The position numbers and the translations under genes were made by a program. A stretch of DNA of 24,041 bases from a virus, in IMG/VR virus record IMGVR_UViG_3300017963_000739, positions 1 through 24,041 of that record; one strand, 5' to 3'. The notes below the pieces were generated by a model. The model had not been told where the DNA came from and searched no databases. It was given only the letters and a program-made list of their open reading frames with translations. Positions 3,490 through 15,975 of the stretch are shown here, one piece after another; the first letter of the stretch is position 1; every line of letters starts with the position of its first letter.

Positions 3490-3563
3490 TGCTGACGGAG
3501 GGATTCGAACCCCCGACCGTGTGATTACAAATCACGTGCTCTGGCCAGCTGAGCTACGTCAGC
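3490..3563 (-). tRNA. tRNA-Thr (anticodon UGU)
   Basis: On the minus strand there is a full cloverleaf. The acceptor GCTGACG/CGTCAGC has 7 perfect pairs. The D stem is GCTC/GAGC with an AGCTGGCCA loop. The anticodon stem is CGTGA/TCACA-type, with loop TTTGTAA giving anticodon TGT. The T arm is GGGGG-TTCGAAT-CCCTC. The discriminator base is A at 3490, followed by TTGG, so CCA is not encoded. The anticodon UGU reads ACA and other ACN Thr codons, which fits the Thr-rich fibre proteins of this phage. It lies within the leftward operon and must be processed out of the long transcript. Confidence 0.95.
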
Positions 3564-8778: not shown

Positions 8779-9421
8779 AGCACTTCTCCTTTAGTCCTTC
8801 AGCCCAAAAATAAAGATGCGTTCCATCTGTTTCTTCCTCCTTACTAACTCTTATAATTTGGCGATTGGATAAGCCCAATCTATTAGCTTTTTTAACTATA
8901 TAATTTATTTCTTCATCATTTAATTTATCTTTAAATACTATTGCATGCTCATTAATCATTTTATTATCCTCCAATGGAATTAAAGTAATACTAACTCCAG
9001 GTTTATTATTATATCTTTTATTAGAGATTATGGATGCTATTTGAGAATCATCCTCATAAGCTATTTTATTTAAGACGTCTAAATACATTTTTTCGTAGTT
9101 ATCTAAATCAGGTCTGCTAGTGACAAATTGCGATAGAGCCGCTTTTTTGCGCTTTTTAGACCACGAAGCAGGAATCTGGACTGATATGTCTAGGTGACAT
9201 GCGATAGGCCCGCAAATTGGCTTTAAATAGCCTTGATTGCGAAACTGTGCAGCAAATTCCCATTTCAAATTTCGTTTTATTTTAGATTGTGTATCATAAG
9301 CAATACCATTTGCCATGCGATGTCTTTTTTTAGCAATTGGAGCTCCTGAGTGATAAAAATGCATATAACTCGCCTTATTTTTAGTCTTAACTCCAGCAAT
9401 ATTAAGTGTTTTATTTTTCAT
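8771..9421 (-). CDS. rusA: RusA-like Holliday junction resolvase with C-terminal extension
   Basis: RusA cuts four-way DNA junctions during recombination and before packaging. The family signature is plain: SGAPIAKKRHRMANGIAYDT at the N-terminus, then SRPDLDNYEKMYLDVLNKI and AYEDDSQI, giving the metal-binding aspartates D105, D107 and D124/D125. The core ends near residue 150. A further 65 residues (INEHAIVFKDKLNDEEINYI, then SNRQIIRVSKEEETDGTHLY) have no counterpart in the 120-residue E. coli enzyme. The ATG at 9419-9421 has only a weak AAGG nearby. Together with the RecT-like and YqaJ genes across the divergent promoter, it completes a recombination set. Confidence 0.9.
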   Translation of the reverse strand: MKNKTLNIAGVKTKNKASYMHFYHSGAPIAKKRHRMANGIAYDTQSKIKRNLKWEFAAQFRNQGYLKPICGPIACHLDISVQIPASWSKKRKKAALSQFVTSRPDLDNYEKMYLDVLNKIAYEDDSQIASIISNKRYNNKPGVSITLIPLEDNKMINEHAIVFKDKLNDEEINYIVKKANRLGLSNRQIIRVSKEEETDGTHLYFWAEGLKEKCCV

Positions 9422-9424
9422 CAA

Positions 9425-9449
9425 CCTTTTTTCCCGAAAAAATTTTTTT
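9425..9449. other. AT-rich palindrome between rusA and the replication gene
   Basis: TTTTTTC-CC-GAAAAAA followed by a long T run on the plus strand forms a weak A/T hairpin between the two genes. It could be a weak terminator or simply low-complexity spacer; the stem has only one G-C pair. Confidence 0.25.
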
Positions 9450-10355
9450 TTATAATAATTTATATTTTCTCATCAAATTATCCACCTGTTCTTTAAATCC
9501 AGTTTCTGAATATTTAATTGTAATTGGATTTTTCTGTGCCGTTAAAAAAACAAATGTTATGGCCGTCATGTTCACATCGATCCTGATTCCTTTGTTTTTA
9601 GCTATTGATTGAAAGTTGTTTGCAATCTTTTCAGCTAAAGCTTTGTTCTTTTCCCCTCCGTCGAATTCTTGCCTTTTCTTCTTTTTTAATTGTTCTTCAT
9701 GATACGCATCTACTACCCATCGAAGAATTGTTCTATAGTCACACTTGGTCCATTGACGCTTAGGCTTATCCTGTTTCCATTCACTTAACCTTTTGTAACA
9801 CCAATCCCTTACTTCCTTTCCATATTTATCTTCAAGCTTCTGATGATCATGATCTGAAATATCAACATGGACAGCTCTTCCAATCTTTTTTTGAATTGGA
9901 GCGCGTGCGACTTTCTTTATATCCTCTTTAGAGGATATTTCTTTATTTATATTCTTTATTATATGGGTGCAGTTTTCTGCATTGCTGCCATGCAGTTTTC
10001 TGCATGTCTGATATGCAGCATTCTTAGGTTCAACTGCTTGAAGAATTCTTTCCCTTCCATTAAATGATACTGTTTTTATTAAACCCTTGGCTCTTAATTG
10101 GGATAAGATATCTTGTAGTGCTCTAACTTTTAATCCTGTGAATTCCGCTAAATATTCATTACTAGCAAAGCATCCACCTTTTTCGTCATCGTGCAACGAT
10201 TGTATTTCCGCCCATACAGCTTTTGCTGTTATAGACAAATCTTTCATTAACCAGATTTCTTTTGGAATCCAAACTCCAAGAAATCCTCTTGTTGGTAATT
10301 TTTTTTCAGAATCTGCTTGATTTAATTCTGGTTTGTTTTTATTGTTAGGATACAT
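9450..10355 (-). CDS. Winged-helix replication-type protein
   Basis: Residues about 25-105 form a winged helix domain: FLGVWIPKEIWLMKDLSITA, KAVWAEIQSLHDDEKGGCFA, then SNEYLAEFTGLKVRALQDIL and a basic wing. This HTH_36-like head is typical of phage replication initiation proteins and of some plasmid ones. A linker and a second basic helical segment (KYGKEVRDWCYKRLSEWKQD, then KCDYRTILRWVVDAYHEEQL) are like the C-terminal part of such proteins. The start at 10355 has AAAGGAGAA upstream and overlaps a 15-codon leader ORF. No helicase or polymerase follows, so the phage probably recruits host replication enzymes. A repressor role is less likely. Confidence 0.75.
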   Translation of the reverse strand: MYPNNKNKPELNQADSEKKLPTRGFLGVWIPKEIWLMKDLSITAKAVWAEIQSLHDDEKGGCFASNEYLAEFTGLKVRALQDILSQLRAKGLIKTVSFNGRERILQAVEPKNAAYQTCRKLHGSNAENCTHIIKNINKEISSKEDIKKVARAPIQKKIGRAVHVDISDHDHQKLEDKYGKEVRDWCYKRLSEWKQDKPKRQWTKCDYRTILRWVVDAYHEEQLKKKKRQEFDGGEKNKALAEKIANNFQSIAKNKGIRIDVNMTAITFVFLTAQKNPITIKYSETGFKEQVDNLMRKYKLL

Positions 10356-10392
10356 TCAAGTTCTCCTTTGTGAAAATTTGTTTGTTATACAT
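10345..10392 (-). CDS. 15-aa leader ORF before the replication gene
   Basis: An ATG at 10390-10392 preceded by AAAGGAGAATTAGA opens MYNKQIFTKENLNVS and stops eight bases inside the start of the replication gene, in a different frame. The DNA around its start and around the replication gene start is an imperfect direct repeat, AAAGGAGAA-[TC]T-[AT]-GAATGTAT. It may couple or tune translation of the replication protein. Small size makes this uncertain. Confidence 0.4.
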   Translation of the reverse strand: MYNKQIFTKENLNVS

Positions 10393-10421
10393 TCTAATTC
10401 TCCTTTATTTGTTTTAGGGTT

Positions 10422-10688
10422 TTAGGATACATAGTTTAATCCTTTGGCTAGGAGGAAATGCTTTAAAAAATTATAATCATTGTTCCTCGTTGAATAATGA
10501 TGACAAGACCCCGAAACGGGTCTACTTTGGGGGAGAAAGGTATCGCTGCTTTTCTCTCCGCCTTTTTTATCCGAAACTAATGTATTTCTAACGTCTTTCA
10601 TACCACTACTTTGGGGTTTATTCAGGGTCCCTAATATCGTATTACAATATTTATAATTTTTAGTATACATAAAATTTAAATTAATCAT
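10422..10688 (-). CDS. Doubtful ORF over a hairpin-rich segment (88 aa)
   Basis: The frame starts at an ATG overlapping the stop of the upstream HTH gene by one base (TAATG) but has no clear ribosome binding site. The product (starting MINLNFMYTKNYKYCNTILG) is polar and Ser/Asn-rich, with no domain that I recognise; LPQSRPVSGSCHHYSTRNND is the most distinctive part. The DNA carries two good hairpins, a repeated CTACTTTGGGG and one arm of a 16-bp inverted repeat, and is locally more GC-rich than its surroundings. This could be a non-coding control or origin segment, with the reading frame open by chance, or a real small gene. Confidence 0.35.
   Translation of the reverse strand: MINLNFMYTKNYKYCNTILGTLNKPQSSGMKDVRNTLVSDKKGGEKSSDTFLPQSRPVSGSCHHYSTRNNDYNFLKHFLLAKGLNYVS
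10506..10523. other. Hairpin AGACCC-GGGTCT
   Basis: AGACCC (10506-10511) and GGGTCT (10518-10523) pair perfectly around the loop CGAAAC. It is followed by CTACTTTGGGG, which recurs at 10606-10616. It lies 10 bases left of the CAGCGAT-loop hairpin, in the gap before the replication gene, so a replication origin or regulatory RNA is possible. Confidence 0.5.
10530..10559 (-). promoter_or_regulatory. Hairpin with CAGCGAT loop
   Basis: On the minus strand GAGAAA (10556-10551) pairs with TTTCTC (10538-10533) around AGCAGCGATACC; two further G-C pairs extend the stem beyond one mismatch. The loop contains the same CAGCGAT heptamer, on the same strand, as the leaders of portal, terL, the ParB-like gene and the fibre gene. 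It is not directly before a known ribosome binding site. Confidence 0.45.
10550..10565 (-). repeat. 16-bp inverted repeat, left arm
   Basis: The minus-strand sequence AAAGGCGGAGAGAAAA is identical to the plus-strand sequence at 11001-11016. The two arms face each other across the HTH gene and the divergent promoters, 435 bp apart. Confidence 0.6.
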
Positions 10689-10891
10689 TATTTCTTAACC
10701 GATTCATCTATATATTCAAACAATTCATCTTCCTTTATTAGGATTTTACCTCCAAATTTGCGTATGCACTTTTCTCTAAATTCCTTATTATTGAAGATTC
10801 TCTTCCTCCATCCTGATTCAGTTAAAAAATCATGCTTTTTTATAAGCTGACGGAATGTTAAATACTTAACGTCTTTTGCCTGTTTTTTCAT
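10688..10891 (-). CDS. Small excisionase/MerR-like HTH protein (67 aa)
   Basis: The protein contains KYLTFRQLIKKHDFLTESGW, then RKRIFNNKEFREKCIRKFGG and KILIKEDELFEYIDESVKK. The order helix, turn, helix, Gly-turn, strand ('GGKILIKEDELFEYI') is that of short winged helix proteins related to excisionases and helix-turn-helix type 17 domains. Such proteins bend DNA or repress promoters. It is the first gene leftward of the divergent promoter region, the usual place for an autoregulated switch protein. No integrase is in the window, so a transcriptional role is more likely than excision. No strong ribosome binding site is visible before the ATG. Confidence 0.65.
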   Translation of the reverse strand: MKKQAKDVKYLTFRQLIKKHDFLTESGWRKRIFNNKEFREKCIRKFGGKILIKEDELFEYIDESVKK

Positions 10892-10929
10892 ATTTTTTCC
10901 TATTTTGTTACTTTTTTTATCTTTTTTTC

Positions 10930-10956
10930 TTGACCCGATATTTTATTTTATATTAT
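10930..10956 (+). promoter_or_regulatory. Candidate promoter for the rightward recombination operon
   Basis: TTGACC (10930-10935) is a good -35 match; TATTAT (10951-10956) is the best -10 match at a short spacing of 15, with TATTGT (10954-10959) as an alternative at 18. It lies in the 126-bp gap between divergent genes and overlaps the leftward candidate promoter. Confidence 0.4.
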
Positions 10957-10967
10957 TGTAAAGTTAA
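10940..10967 (-). promoter_or_regulatory. Candidate promoter for the leftward operon
   Basis: On the minus strand TTAACT (10967-10962) and TAAAAT (10945-10940) are 16 bases apart, the -10 differing from consensus at one position and the -35 at two. The element overlaps the rightward promoter, so the two polymerases could not bind at once. Confidence 0.35.
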
Positions 10968-11000
10968 ATAAATTTCATAGAACTTTTTTTGAAATTTTTT

Positions 11001-11016
11001 AAAGGCGGAGAGAAAA
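11001..11016 (+). repeat. 16-bp inverted repeat, right arm (contains the RBS of the recombination operon)
   Basis: AAAGGCGGAGAGAAAA directly precedes the ATG of the first rightward gene and serves as its ribosome binding site; its inverted copy is at 10550-10565. Confidence 0.6.
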
Positions 11017-11017
11017 T

Positions 11018-11329
11018 ATGTTTAATTATGAACCTTCCCTAGAGGAAGAAGATTATATATATGTTGACCCAATGGAAGATTGGGTTCATGTCGATGAAGT
11101 TGCAAAATATGAAGATGATGCTAAAGAGCAATTCGAAAAGATTCTACACTGTGTTTATAACACTGGAGATGTAGAAGGGTTAGAAGACGCTCTTGATGAA
11201 ATGGCTTCAATTTTTGAAGTTAAATTACCTGAAAATAAACCAAGATTAGCTAAGAAGACAAGTGAGTTGTACGATTTTAGCGTACAGTTCACTCGCGCTA
11301 TGGCTAAACTTAATACAATAGGAGAATAA
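11018..11329 (+). CDS. Acidic protein of unknown function (103 aa)
   Basis: This is the first gene of the rightward operon, with GGCGGAG as ribosome binding site. It is very acidic at the start (MFNYEPSLEEEDYIYVDPME), then helical (EQFEKILHCVYNTGDVEGLE), ending in a helix FSVQFTRAMAKLNTIGE. No cysteine cluster or catalytic motif is seen. Its stop overlaps the RecT-like start (TAATG), so the two are translationally coupled. Acidic first genes of phage recombination operons are sometimes nuclease inhibitors or DNA mimics; nothing here proves that. Confidence 0.75.
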   Translation: MFNYEPSLEEEDYIYVDPMEDWVHVDEVAKYEDDAKEQFEKILHCVYNTGDVEGLEDALDEMASIFEVKLPENKPRLAKKTSELYDFSVQFTRAMAKLNTIGE

Positions 11330-12186
11330 TGATGAAGAAAAAGAATGAAGTTGCAGTTAAACAAACTGATTATTTAGCTGAAATAAAGAACACACAGGAA
11401 CTGTGTGCGATGTTGATGAAACAACCCTACTTCGCAAGAATGGGGCAAGATGGTGTCTTTGCTATTACAACGGTAGCAAGAGCGCTTGATATAAATCCTA
11501 TTAAAGCTTTAATGGGAGGGCTTTACTTTGTAAAAGGTAGAGTAGAAATGACTTATACTATGATGGGAGAATTAATAAGAAACAAAGGTCATAGCCTTAG
11601 CTCCAAGTCAGACGAGAAAAGCTGCACTGTTCATGGAAAAAGGAAAGATAACGGCGATACAGCAAGTTTTACCTTTACTATAGAAGATGCAAAAAAAGCT
11701 GGAATTTACAAAAATGCATGGATCACTTATCCAAAGAATATGTTATATGCTAGAGCTTTATCTAGTTTGGCTCGACAGTTATTTCCGGATGTTATTGGAA
11801 ATTCATATGTTGAAGGAGAGATTAAAGATGATCCAAATATAGCCGATCAAAATGATAGTCAAAATGACAATCAAATTGAACATAAAAAAATTTCTGAACC
11901 CCACGCCAATGAGGTTCAGGATAAACGTACTGATGAAGAAATAAAAACTCTAACTACATTGCTTAAAGATCTTCCAGATGAGAGTAGCAAACTCAATAAA
12001 TTTTTGAAAGTAAAAAATATTGAGATGTCTGAAATTCCTAAACCTATGTATGAGAACATGATAAAAAAAGCTAAGAAAAAAGCTTTTGATAAATTGAAAG
12101 AAGAAGTTAAATCAGGGCCTAATGGAGAATTTTATCATGATGCTTACTTTGGCGAGGAGGTGCAATATGCAAATCCTGGAGTTTAA
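11329..12186 (+). CDS. RecT-like single-strand annealing protein
   Basis: The middle of the protein matches the RecT/Bet-like group by pattern: MGGLYFVKGRVEMTYTMMGE (62-81), a beta-rich segment with FTFTIEDAKKAGIYKNAWIT, then YPKNMLYARALSSLARQLFP and DVIGNSYVEGEI. The W-x2-YP-x2-M-x2-ARA...PDV signature is typical of these proteins, which coat single strands and anneal them to complementary DNA. The last 110 residues are polar and Lys-rich, probably flexible. Two adjacent ATG codons are possible starts; AGGAG suits either, the second slightly better. It sits directly before the YqaJ exonuclease with a 20-base overlap, the usual exonuclease/annealase pairing. Confidence 0.85.
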   Translation: MMKKKNEVAVKQTDYLAEIKNTQELCAMLMKQPYFARMGQDGVFAITTVARALDINPIKALMGGLYFVKGRVEMTYTMMGELIRNKGHSLSSKSDEKSCTVHGKRKDNGDTASFTFTIEDAKKAGIYKNAWITYPKNMLYARALSSLARQLFPDVIGNSYVEGEIKDDPNIADQNDSQNDNQIEHKKISEPHANEVQDKRTDEEIKTLTTLLKDLPDESSKLNKFLKVKNIEMSEIPKPMYENMIKKAKKKAFDKLKEEVKSGPNGEFYHDAYFGEEVQYANPGV

Positions 12187-13054
12187 ATCGGATAAAGAGT
12201 ATTGGGCATTTAGGAAGCAACATATTGGTGCTTCGGATGCTAGTATTATCATGGGGGCTTCCAAATGGAAGCTCTCTGATGGGAGAACTAAAACCCCATA
12301 TTTATTATGGGAAGAGAAGCTTGGGTTTGAAGAGCTTAAAGTAAATACTGCTGCAACTCAATATGGTCAGAGAATGGAAGAGCCAGCTCGCCAAGTTTAT
12401 AATGAGATGAAAGGAGAGGTATTTACACCTAAAGCTGTGAAAAATGCAGAATTTCTGTATTTAATGGCTTCATTGGATGGCTTAAATGACTCGAAAACTA
12501 AATGTGTTGAGATTAAGAATCCAAATGAAAAAGATCATGAGCTTGCAAAAAGTGGGAAAATCCCACCACATTACATTCCTCAAGTTCAGATGCAGCTTTT
12601 AGTTACTGGATTTGATGAGATGGATTATTTTTCATTCCACAAAGGTGAAGGTGTAATCGTTACAGTTAAAAGAGATGAGGAATATATCAAGAAAATGATT
12701 GACAAATTGCGCAAATTCTGGGATTATGTAGAAAATTTAGAAGCTCCTCCTTTAACAGACGACGATTATGTTAAACAGGATCTTCAATGGCAAGCGTATG
12801 CTCGCGAATTATATCTAGTTAAGAAAGAAAAACGGAAGCTTTGTTACAAAGAAAAAGAATTGTTACAAAAGCTAAAATCGATGTGTGGACACAGAAACGC
12901 CTATTTTGGGCCATATCGTCTTAAGCGTAGTATCTCCCTAGGGAGGGTAGACTATAATTCGATTCCTGAGCTTTTAAACGTCAATCTCGACGATTTCAGG
13001 GGTGAACCTAAAGAAAGTTGGTATCTCCACAAAGGAGATGAAAATGGGAATTGA
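12167..13054 (+). CDS. YqaJ-family recombination exonuclease
   Basis: I place the start at ATG 12167 (MQILEFKSDKEYWAFRKQHI) because GAGGAGG lies seven bases upstream; an in-frame ATG 45 bases earlier lacks a site. The lambda-exonuclease-like motifs are present: IGASDASIIMG (20-30), YGQRMEEPAR with E71/E72, LMASLDGL with D104, VEIKN with E115-x-K117, and PHYIPQVQMQLL with Q139/Q141. This enzyme resects double-strand ends so that the RecT-like partner can anneal the exposed strand. A basic coiled segment follows (residues about 215-255). The end overlaps the next gene by 11 bases. All catalytic residues are intact. Confidence 0.92.
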   Translation: MQILEFKSDKEYWAFRKQHIGASDASIIMGASKWKLSDGRTKTPYLLWEEKLGFEELKVNTAATQYGQRMEEPARQVYNEMKGEVFTPKAVKNAEFLYLMASLDGLNDSKTKCVEIKNPNEKDHELAKSGKIPPHYIPQVQMQLLVTGFDEMDYFSFHKGEGVIVTVKRDEEYIKKMIDKLRKFWDYVENLEAPPLTDDDYVKQDLQWQAYARELYLVKKEKRKLCYKEKELLQKLKSMCGHRNAYFGPYRLKRSISLGRVDYNSIPELLNVNLDDFRGEPKESWYLHKGDENGN

Positions 13055-14394: not shown

Positions 14395-14907
14395 TTAACA
14401 TATTAGTGTTCCTTGAAAAAATGTTCCTACAGTAGAAGCTCTAATATCCACAGTCTTTCCAGTTCCAGATACTGTAATTTGTACAGTTGCTGTATCAGCT
14501 GCATCCATATCTGCAAGAACTGCTGAATGCACTAATGTAATATCAGCCCCAGCAGAATAAGCAATTCCTTGAGGTCCTACATTTGCCACTATATAAGTTC
14601 TGTTTGAAGTAATAATCTCTATTAAATAAGTAGTAGCGGCTCCAGTATCTTCTATTTGATTTGATACTACGAGATCATATCTTCCAGTGACGGGTGCTGT
14701 GAATGTTCCGTTAGTATTAAAGTCAGAGTTTTGATCATATATTTCAGTTAGTGCATTACCGCTTCCAAATGTAAAAGCAGTTCCATCTCCTGTGACATTA
14801 GAGTCAGTAGTAGCAAGTCTTGCAAAGAATGCAACTTGACTTGGCATTGTTACTTCATTTGTTGAAGTTGGAACTATGTAGGTATTTAAATTATTGTTTG
14901 TTGCCAT
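14395..14907 (-). CDS. C1q-like jelly-roll protein, paralogue 3 (170 aa)
   Basis: The order NSDFNTNGTFTAPVTGRYDL, then YLIEIITSNRTYIV and the closing strand FFQGTLIC matches the C1q/TNF-like jelly roll, which forms trimers and often makes the receptor-binding tip of phage fibres. The conserved N-terminus MATNNNLNTYIVPTSTNEVT followed by PSQVAF is shared with the next two genes. No collagen or coiled-coil stalk is encoded, so it probably attaches to another fibre subunit. AAGGAGA precedes the ATG. One of three tandem copies separated by only nine bases. Confidence 0.8.
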   Translation of the reverse strand: MATNNNLNTYIVPTSTNEVTMPSQVAFFARLATTDSNVTGDGTAFTFGSGNALTEIYDQNSDFNTNGTFTAPVTGRYDLVVSNQIEDTGAATTYLIEIITSNRTYIVANVGPQGIAYSAGADITLVHSAVLADMDAADTATVQITVSGTGKTVDIRASTVGTFFQGTLIC

Positions 14908-14916
14908 ATTTTCTCC

Positions 14917-15432
14917 TTAACATACTAATACCCCACTAAAATGAGTTGTACAGTCAGTTAAATCTCCACGTGAAATTCCTACTGTTTTAGCTCCTCCATT
15001 TACCCTACAGTATATGTGTGCTGTATCGGCTGCATCCATATCTGCAAATACTCCGTTTTCGTAAGTAGTATTGTTTGAAGTATTAAGGAAGTTATTAACA
15101 TCATCAGTATAAATAGAATAATATTGTCTATTTGAAGTAATTACAGCTAAGAGCCATACAGTATGTCCAGCTGCATTAGAAATTCCAACCGAATTCGTTA
15201 TTTCATATACTCCTGTTACTGGAGCTGTAAATTGATAAGTACCTGTATCAAAATCAGCATTCTGATCAAAGATTTCTAGGTCAATTGTCATTGGACTAAG
15301 AGCTGTTCCATCCCCTGTTGCATTTGCCCATGCTCCATTTAAAACAGCTAAAAAAGCAGGTTGAGATGGCTGAGTTACCTCGTTATTAGCGGTTGGCACA
15401 ATGTATGTGTTTGCCGAATTATTTGTTGCCAT
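14917..15432 (-). CDS. C1q-like jelly-roll protein, paralogue 2 (171 aa)
   Basis: Same plan as its neighbours: MATNNSANTYIVPTANNEVT, PSQPAFLAVL, then DQNADFDTGTYQFTAPVTGV, TSNRQYYSIY and FSGVLVC. The framework residues of the jelly roll are kept (DQN.DF, TAPVTG.Y, TSNR.Y, DMDAADTA), while loops differ in length and sequence from the paralogues. That is the pattern expected for receptor-binding tips under diversifying selection. GAGGAGA lies before the ATG. Confidence 0.8.
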   Translation of the reverse strand: MATNNSANTYIVPTANNEVTQPSQPAFLAVLNGAWANATGDGTALSPMTIDLEIFDQNADFDTGTYQFTAPVTGVYEITNSVGISNAAGHTVWLLAVITSNRQYYSIYTDDVNNFLNTSNNTTYENGVFADMDAADTAHIYCRVNGGAKTVGISRGDLTDCTTHFSGVLVC

Positions 15433-15441
15433 ATCTTCTCC

Positions 15442-15975
15442 TCATACTAGTAAATATCCCATAAAATAAGTTTCTAAGGTTGCGCTTCCCTGTACATCTA
15501 CAGTATCGCCACCTAAGTTATAGAGTACTGTAAAAAACTTAGCAGTATCTGCTGCATCCATATCACATATAAAATGTGCTCCTGTGAAGATTTCATCAGC
15601 GGCATTTACAACTGCACTACCATCCCATGAACATATGATATACCTGCGATTAGAAGTTTCTACTTTATTAAATTCATAGTTACTGGTACTTACAGAATCT
15701 ACGGTAATTCCAGCTATAAATACATATCTTCCAGTTACAGGAGCGGTAAAATAAGCGCCTCCAGAAGCACCTGTTGTAAAATCTGCATTTTGATCAAATA
15801 TCTCAGTCAGTGCTGTTCCAACATCCGTATCTCCAATACGAAATACAGTGCCCGCTCCTGTCTGATTATCATCATCAGATCCAAGATAAGCACTGAAAGC
15901 AGGTTGAGATGGCTGCAATACTATATTGTTCGCATCTGGCGTTATATAGGTATTTGCTGCATTGTTCGTTGCCAT
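15442..15975 (-). CDS. C1q-like jelly-roll protein, paralogue 1 (177 aa)
   Basis: This is the first gene of the trio after the large spike, with AAGGAGGA as ribosome binding site. It has MATNNAANTYITPDANNIVL, then PSQPAFSAYL, DQNADFTTGASGGAYFTAPV, TSNRRYIICSW and the final strand ETYFMGYLLV. DMDAADTAKF matches the DMDAADTA core of the other two. It is six to seven residues longer, mainly through an insertion in the DQNADF loop. Trimer formation and attachment to the spike are inferred from the family. Confidence 0.8.
   Translation of the reverse strand: MATNNAANTYITPDANNIVLQPSQPAFSAYLGSDDDNQTGAGTVFRIGDTDVGTALTEIFDQNADFTTGASGGAYFTAPVTGRYVFIAGITVDSVSTSNYEFNKVETSNRRYIICSWDGSAVVNAADEIFTGAHFICDMDAADTAKFFTVLYNLGGDTVDVQGSATLETYFMGYLLV

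Follow-up and report, generated by a model that had tools for sequence, protein, structure and literature searches.

What is encoded by the hairpin-rich segment that lies beside a phage replication gene? The segment (10422–10688) is part of a virus record in IMG/VR (24,041 bases), the whole of which was analysed and is called the window below. The initial annotation had taken it for a replication origin or a regulatory RNA rather than a gene, and had given no strand, terminator or target. It was found that the regulatory RNA half of this proposal was strongly supported by the fold, by a terminator on the plus strand, by the codon score of the frame across the segment and by the pairing of loops with mRNA starts. 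Positions 10476–10568 on the plus strand are predicted to be a small-RNA gene, which would be neither an origin nor an 88-codon gene.

Three hairpins and a terminator on the plus strand

The predicted small antisense RNA (10476–10568, +) consists of three hairpins and a U-tail, and was delimited by its folding z-score, its terminator and a match to the family model R1 described below. Hairpin A (10476–10501, +) carries site A at 10485–10498 (CCTCGTTGAATAAT), which is antisense to the Shine-Dalgarno sequence of the portal gene. The middle hairpin (10506–10523, +; AGACCC/GGGTCT), a stem already recognized in the initial annotation, lies outside the two-hairpin model obtained from relatives. Hairpin B with its GCC-T6 tail (10530–10568, +) constitutes an intrinsic terminator on the plus strand, because GCCTTTTTT comes right after the hairpin at 10530–10559; site B is in its loop at 10542–10549 (ATCGCTGC). 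A second stem had indeed been described here, but its bounds were 10530–10559 and not 10533–10556, and the loop reported with it, GCAGCGAT, is the loop at 10542–10549 read on the minus strand. The hairpin at 10476–10501, the T-run terminator on the plus strand and the complementarity to two translation starts had not been described before.

The plus strand of 10476–10570 folded at –36.5 kcal/mol, compared with a mean of –20.5 (sd 3.1) for shuffled sequences (z –5.23), and none of 200 shuffles was as good, while the minus strand gave a z of –2.44, with 3 of 200 shuffles as good. For the longer stretch 10420–10640 the z-scores were –2.60 and –0.62. The G/C runs said to distinguish the segment were present in the hairpin core, but the wider surroundings are ordinary (G+C of 0.305 over 10300–10699). 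The direct repeat CTACTTTGGGG, which had also been listed, is real and occurs at 10522–10532 and 10606–10616. Three near-identical copies of TTAGGATACAT are found around the RNA gene (10345–10355, 10422–10432 and 10660–10670), which are possible protein-binding sites.

No plus-strand gene that the hairpin-B terminator could serve was seen upstream in the window. The nearest upstream plus-strand frames (9867–10067 and 10087–10320) are antisense to the replication gene and had negative codon scores, and the RNA itself lies opposite in strand to the flanking replication-side genes. No promoter signal was detected upstream of 21 RNAs (mean z –0.33); in the window, a TATAAT (10472–10477) overlaps hairpin A, and no –35 element was seen by eye.

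Coding potential of the 88-codon frame

The 88-codon frame (10422–10688, –) is open and begins on a TAATG overlap with the stop codon of the preceding 67-aa gene, as a real gene might. Its codon score of 0.019 was slightly over the range given by 17 antisense frames (–0.27 to –0.002) but under the score of each of 23 genes of the window (0.19–0.59), 16 of which formed the training set, the other 7 covering the same range. In agreement with the earlier description, the frame had no Shine-Dalgarno sequence by eye and no recognisable domain, with no match in Pfam and a single, insignificant match in PHROG (E 0.085). A tblastn search of the frame against the loci of 47 relatives returned nothing. 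The frame was judged a non-gene, and it is extremely unlikely that it encodes a protein.

Gene neighbourhood and the replication origin

The RNA gene is flanked on one side by the gene of a winged-helix replication initiation protein (9450–10355, –; HTH_36, E 2e-11; phrog_270, E 7e-15), as had been surmised, and on the other by the 67-aa gene (10688–10891, –). The 67-aa protein showed a weak helix-turn-helix resemblance (HTH_17, E 0.034, under the cut-off), matched phrog_5920 (E 0.001), a family of unknown function, and has a homologue in the relative L011 (42% match). These two genes, the terminase gene and the portal gene are all leftward. Rightward from 11018 runs the divergent operon, which is composed of a 103-aa gene (11018–11329, +) without an assigned function in the ORF list and the profile and relative searches, a RecT-like annealing protein gene (11329–12186, +; phrog_4171, E 2e-17) and a RecE/YqaJ-like exonuclease gene (12122–13054, +; PF09588, E 1e-22). 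The P22-like portal gene, which is truncated by the window edge (3–914, –; PF16510, E 1e-37; phrog_156, E 7e-38), is the main predicted target of the small RNA.

Several other features of the window were observed. A 101-aa protein encoded directly upstream of the terminase gene (2546–2851, –) matched sigma-factor profiles (phrog_351, E 2e-20) and is perhaps a late regulator. A tRNA-Thr (TGT) gene is located in the late region (3490–3563, –). At 14395–15975 (–), three tandem frames of 170–177 aa (MATNN...) are alike and adjoin a 1291-aa frame; by eye they are tail or receptor-type repeats.

No integrase was found in the window; among 11 records, an integrase was above the cut-off in one and weak in one further record. 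The region 9400–12200 had no similarity to named phages at the DNA level. The terminase protein matched 1557 named phage records, the best at ~40%, and the replication protein matched 10 such records over partial length. The RecT matches among relatives included two Chlamydiae MAG contigs (36–39 kb) and further MAGs, but MAG matches do not fix the host, and Chlamydiae was not adopted as the host.

A replication origin or Rep-binding DNA, in which the hairpins would be DNA structures, would be in keeping with the adjoining initiator gene and the small direct repeats at 10345–10432. Nevertheless, the structure was stronger on one strand and is ended there by a T-run, and the loops covary with distant mRNA leaders, as described below. 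The shift of GC skew expected at the hairpins was not observed; the skew changed sign at ~10,900–11,000, where gene orientation switches. With the skew turning elsewhere and the conserved elements apparently acting as RNA loops paired with mRNA starts, the origin half of the earlier proposal gained no support, and hairpins serving as an origin are very unlikely.

The repeats of the region are short, of two and three copies, and lie partly upstream of the replication gene; the origin could be in the small repeats right upstream of this gene (10345–10406). A 20-nt direct repeat there (90%; 10350–10369 and 10387–10406) duplicates the Shine-Dalgarno sequence and ATG of the replication gene, and a short overlapping frame begins, by eye, in its upstream copy. 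A longer array of units like this repeat was present in L011 (~1180–1430), and in both genomes such units may represent iterons or a leader-peptide device. By eye, several alike copies of a TAGGATGGAGAAG-type unit were seen in the equivalent gap of L015 (7296–7500).

Conservation of the RNA in relatives

Relatives were found in IMG/VR via RecE, RecT and terminase, two of the sets of matches comprising the best 80 of 419 and the best 80 of 86. A single-sequence scan of IMG/VR with the replication protein gave no close kin, and distant kin of this protein were present in loci found by the other proteins. The 165 loci with enough upstream sequence, distant genomes included, formed 139 clusters, and the last leftward frame, which is not always the true flanking gene (e.g. 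in L011), could be defined in 128. From 40 nt inside to 400 nt beyond the 3′ end of this frame, a terminator hairpin was found on the plus strand in 65 of the 128 non-redundant loci and on the minus strand in 11.

Some plus-strand terminators at this place are ordinary, for example that of L153 with a GAAA-type loop, so that not all of them represent the family. Such loci would suit an explanation in which the window hairpin is a plain terminator against stray rightward transcription, with chance matches to translation starts. We consider this very unlikely, since hairpin A upstream and loop B are both conserved and the RNAs match their own partners with a z of 7.6 (see below).

In a core group of relatives, the hairpins had a common apical loop (GAGUGGUUCC and variants) atop unrelated stems, with a small hairpin (e.g. 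CUACAC-UCGC-GUGUAG) ahead of them. The alignment of 20 relatives exhibited compensatory change in 12 of 14 pairs in two helices, with a covariation of 0.624, compared with 0.256 (sd 0.028) for shuffled and at most 0.222 for slid alignments. Hairpin B was chosen by folding, and its pairing is therefore partly selected; hairpin A, which was not so chosen, had compensatory change in 4 of its 6 pairs.

The family model R1, from which the window was excluded, matched the window best at 10494–10567 (+) with 18.9 bits (E 0.003 for 24 kb); this weak fit is a weak point of the RNA model. Over 71 chosen loci (0.89 Mb), some of which share contigs and many of which are model members, R1 gave 28 matches at E 0.01, 27 of them on the plus strand and 8 on contigs outside the model; the window was not among them. 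Of 50 terminase-bearing records 13 matched, 8 being the model's own contigs. L256, one of the five remaining records, did not resemble the family on inspection and was left out. A further R1 match, in a Chlamydiia MAG (L265), lay in a sequence that by eye resembled host chromosome and was judged to be due to chance; among 232 genomes of the phylum of L265 there was no match at E 1e-4, under stricter filters by which the L265 genome was missed too.

At gathering score, Rfam yielded only tRNA in the window and in the loci of 18 relatives. On 10350–10700, up to E 10, six sub-threshold matches were obtained, none to C4, the best being RatA with 21.6 bits vs 49. No published account of such an RNA was found in the open-licence PubMed Central literature.

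Complementarity to the portal mRNA leader in the window

The RNA at 10485–10498 is the exact 14-nt complement of the portal Shine-Dalgarno sequence (933–920, –), which is part of site b (909–933, –), a stretch containing the Shine-Dalgarno sequence and the start codon. A leader hairpin is predicted at 935–965 (–), whose 7-nt bulge holds most of site a (GCAGCGAT, 960–953, –), and loop B at 10542–10549 is the 8-nt complement of this site. The RNA gene and this target are 9.5 kb apart.

When 11,874 overlapping 40-nt segments of both strands were scanned by duplex energy, the portal start ranked first and second. None of 2000 dinucleotide-shuffled RNAs reached 14 nt at any of 27 starts. Cofolding of the RNA with the portal leader gave –67.1 kcal/mol, compared with –48.7 kcal/mol apart, and the predicted duplex had 21 pairs with one bulge, covering the portal Shine-Dalgarno sequence and AUG. 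Hairpin B and the leader hairpin remained closed in this prediction, the loop-B contact being outside the predicted complex.

Joint change of the RNA loops and the portal leader

In close relatives the portal leader contains a hairpin, GACTCT-(aaACCAC)-C...G-AGAGTC, followed by CTACACGCGAGG before the ATG, and 7 of 10 pairs of the leader hairpin covary in 20 leaders, the window included. The complement of loop B lies in the bulge of the leader and that of hairpin A in the Shine-Dalgarno stretch, an order that fits a single antiparallel complex. The partners differ between phages: the window has the loop AUCGCUGC with GCAGCGAU, and the relatives have GUGGUU with AACCAC. Matches between RNA and leader on one contig were found in L074 (CTCACGTGTAG with CTACACGTGAG, and GTGGTTCTG with CAGAACCAC), L066 (CTCGTGTGTAG with CTACACACGAG), L148 (ATTGGTTC with GAACCAAT) and L083 (GGTGGTTCTGA with TCAGAACCACC).

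In an own-partner test, each RNA was scored against its own leader and all others, and the partners were permuted. The scoring scheme was fixed on the first 11 linked pairs, and the same score was then used on 16 held-out pairs, the portals of which were obtained with a portal profile (16 of 25 records). For the first 11 pairs the two-site z was 5.41 (2 of 200,000 permutations) and 4.62 without the window (7 of 200,000); for the held-out pairs it was 4.53 (5 of 200,000). All 27 pairs gave a z of 7.57 (0 of 200,000), or 6.97 without the window, by a permutation that takes no account of relatedness, where kinship should raise the mismatched scores and not the matched ones. For the window, both its own leader and its own RNA came top among the 27.

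By inspection, both sites were present in 15 of the 27 pairs, namely 9 of the first 11 (the window, L052, L074, L066, L131, L163, L072, L084 and L100) and 6 of the 16 held out (L083, L148, L157, L158, L161 and L061). The loop-B match was 5–7 nt by eye in L066, L131 and L161, and both matches of L100 lay in the stretch before hairpin B, outside its loop. Among the 20 aligned RNAs, 13 had a portal gene on the same contig and both sites were seen in 11 of these; they were not found in L146 and L208, although both carry the RNA. The two sites were not both found by inspection in 12 of the 27 pairs: in addition to L146 and L208, L014, L016, L029, L175, L186, L191 and L192 had no clear sites, the portal leader of L165 had the loop-B match only, and L012 and L179 had a good partner rank but not via both loops. 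Taken at the level of sequence, these data point to RNA loops and a portal leader that changed together in a number of relatives, as would be expected of an RNA switch over assembly.

A countertranscript acting in cis, like lambda OOP or a plasmid ctRNA, would explain the locus differently, namely by limiting the replication protein through the overlapped leftward mRNA. The RNA has the right place for this, on the opposite strand, flanked by a small leftward gene and an O-like replication gene, and with its own terminator; this position is kept in about half of the relatives, and full complementarity to the leftward mRNA is automatic. However, the tracking of a portal leader 9.5 kb off by the loops would be left without explanation, and the terminator stops ~120 bp short of the 67-aa gene. 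We therefore regard a purely cis-acting RNA as a possible but doubtful explanation; effects in cis and in trans could also both exist.

In a second group of relatives the sites were found ~90–140 nt ahead of the portal ATG. In these leaders GCGAGG, in site b, has a second partner in GCCTCGC, the other half of which is complementary to and pairs with the start region (e.g. TCGCATCCT with AGGATGCGA). When the best helix pair was sought by a script, one was returned for each of 26 leaders, of which 20 were convincing by eye, with compensatory variants, a count that has no null. The bound RNA might shift these leaders towards the form in which the start is hidden. A flip of the fold was not seen in L021, L072, L084 and L071, whose best fold already has the start-hiding helix while site b is free. 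The three-strand leader that precedes the portal ATG (GCGAGG / GCCTCGCATCC / GGATGCGATG), in which a CTGATCA hairpin often separates the strands, resembles an RNA element in its own right, as in L269 (1383–1502, +), L272 (1383–1502, +) and L021 (1180–1299, –); it had no match in Rfam in the loci tested.

A second predicted target at the recombination operon

The 3′ arm and tail of hairpin B (10550–10565, +) are the exact 16-nt complement of 11001–11016 (+; AAAGGCGGAGAGAAAA), the start region of the 103-aa gene at 11018, with which the divergent operon opens. In the duplex-energy scan of 11,874 segments this start was sixth, tied with one other. The own-partner test against operon starts was performed with 34 hairpins, picked by energy and loop pattern except for those of the window, L012, L014, L100 and L163, which were placed by hand. 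It gave a z of 5.7 (0 of 100,000), or 5.2 without the window, with a sum of 299.9 for operon starts vs 248 (sd 7) for non-start segments. When the window, the four other hand-placed hairpins and the two top loci were removed, the z was 2.97 (222 of 100,000). Inside the 20 aligned members it was 1.16 (12,579 of 100,000), which was not significant, in a set whose near-alike loops leave little power.

Single matches to operon starts were found in L026 (14 nt), in L016 (10 nt immediately before the ATG) and in L165 (GGTGGTGC with GCACCACC ahead of the ATG). These results suggest that the operon start is likely a second target in the window and probably a target in part of the family, although in relatives it is less well supported than the portal target.

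Discussion

On the strength of the sequence comparisons above, it is highly probable that 10476–10568 (+) encodes an antisense RNA that acts in trans and would repress portal translation. The computational support comprises the RNA structure, the terminator, the conserved place and fold, and the own-partner matching with the portal leader. A separate locus, a terminator of its own and complementarity to the start of another gene are features of trans-acting small RNAs in general. From these observations we infer transcription, repression, docking order, timing and titration by leftward transcripts, repression by analogy with how antisense RNAs generally act on start regions.

The nearest known RNA by mechanism appears to be C4 of P1/P7, which is described as having two loops, one near the ribosome binding site and the other upstream and setting specificity, and as being released from a longer transcript by RNase P and controlling ant (PMC5320573, PMC12197685). 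Like C4 (RF01695) as described there, the window RNA has two loops, one antisense to a ribosome binding site and one to a site upstream, an arrangement that was found in the window and in 14 of the 26 other linked pairs, some with sites further upstream of the start. Unlike C4 in those accounts, it has its own terminator and a portal target that is 9.5 kb away on the opposite strand. It was not assigned to C4, with no RF01695 match and a P22-like portal gene, not ant, as its best target.

By position, the nearest RNA appears to be lambda OOP, which is described as being made against the cII-O operon from between both genes, ending at a terminator hairpin, overlapping cII by 52 bases and acting in cis (PMC5869508). 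The opposite strand, the own terminator and the O-like gene beside it are shared with the OOP of that account, and the likeness of the 67-aa gene to cII is one of position only, the HTH match being under the cut-off. In contrast to OOP as described, the loops of the window RNA match mRNAs encoded elsewhere, and there is no overlap with the 67-aa gene, since the terminator ends at ~10568 and the 67-aa gene at 10688. The RNA was filed as neither C4 nor OOP, because it had no match to the C4 model, a target other than that of C4 and no OOP-like overlap.

By target class, the nearest would be STnc6030 of prophage BTP1, described as antisense to structural-gene transcripts and acting in superinfection exclusion (PMC7067206); it is given there as a cis-antisense RNA of >700 nt, whereas the window RNA is ~93 nt with short bipartite loops. 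RNAII of pMV158 is described as a small antisense RNA that blocks translation with a terminator-type hairpin and a second pairing region (PMC4485353); its target in that account is the replication gene repB, while the main target of the window RNA is not a replication gene.

In the proposed mechanism, a small RNA would be made opposite to the leftward replication-side genes and end at its own intrinsic terminator. Loop B would dock first on the exposed bulge of the portal leader hairpin in a kissing contact, after which hairpin A would open and pair across the portal Shine-Dalgarno sequence and start codon; it is this anatomy that suggests direct occlusion of the start after docking. Ribosome loading on the portal mRNA would thereby be blocked, and no portal protein would be made until the RNA was gone or titrated. 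The 3′ arm and tail may also pair with the start of the RecT/RecE operon, holding down the recombination genes too. As the full complement of the RNA, the leftward replication transcript could titrate it, which, speculatively, would tie late translation to replication.

A more tentative idea, which we consider possible but less likely than not, is that loops and portal leader together make up a rapidly changing immunity code of the lock-and-key type, an RNA-only heteroimmunity aimed at capsid assembly. The RNA of a resident phage would then silence the portal, and perhaps recombination, mRNAs of incoming phages of the same code, and phages changing both partners would escape, as the window would have done.

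We regard the RNA as a new family among the antisense RNAs of phages, one whose target is unusual, and not as a new kind of system. Matching of own partners across contigs offers a route to pairs of phage small RNAs and their targets from sequence alone, and the pairing yields a precise prediction for each phage. Phage structural genes are usually thought to be timed by transcription. If the loops coevolve with the portal leader, a group of uncultivated phages would have a translational gate on virion assembly, and possibly on superinfection.
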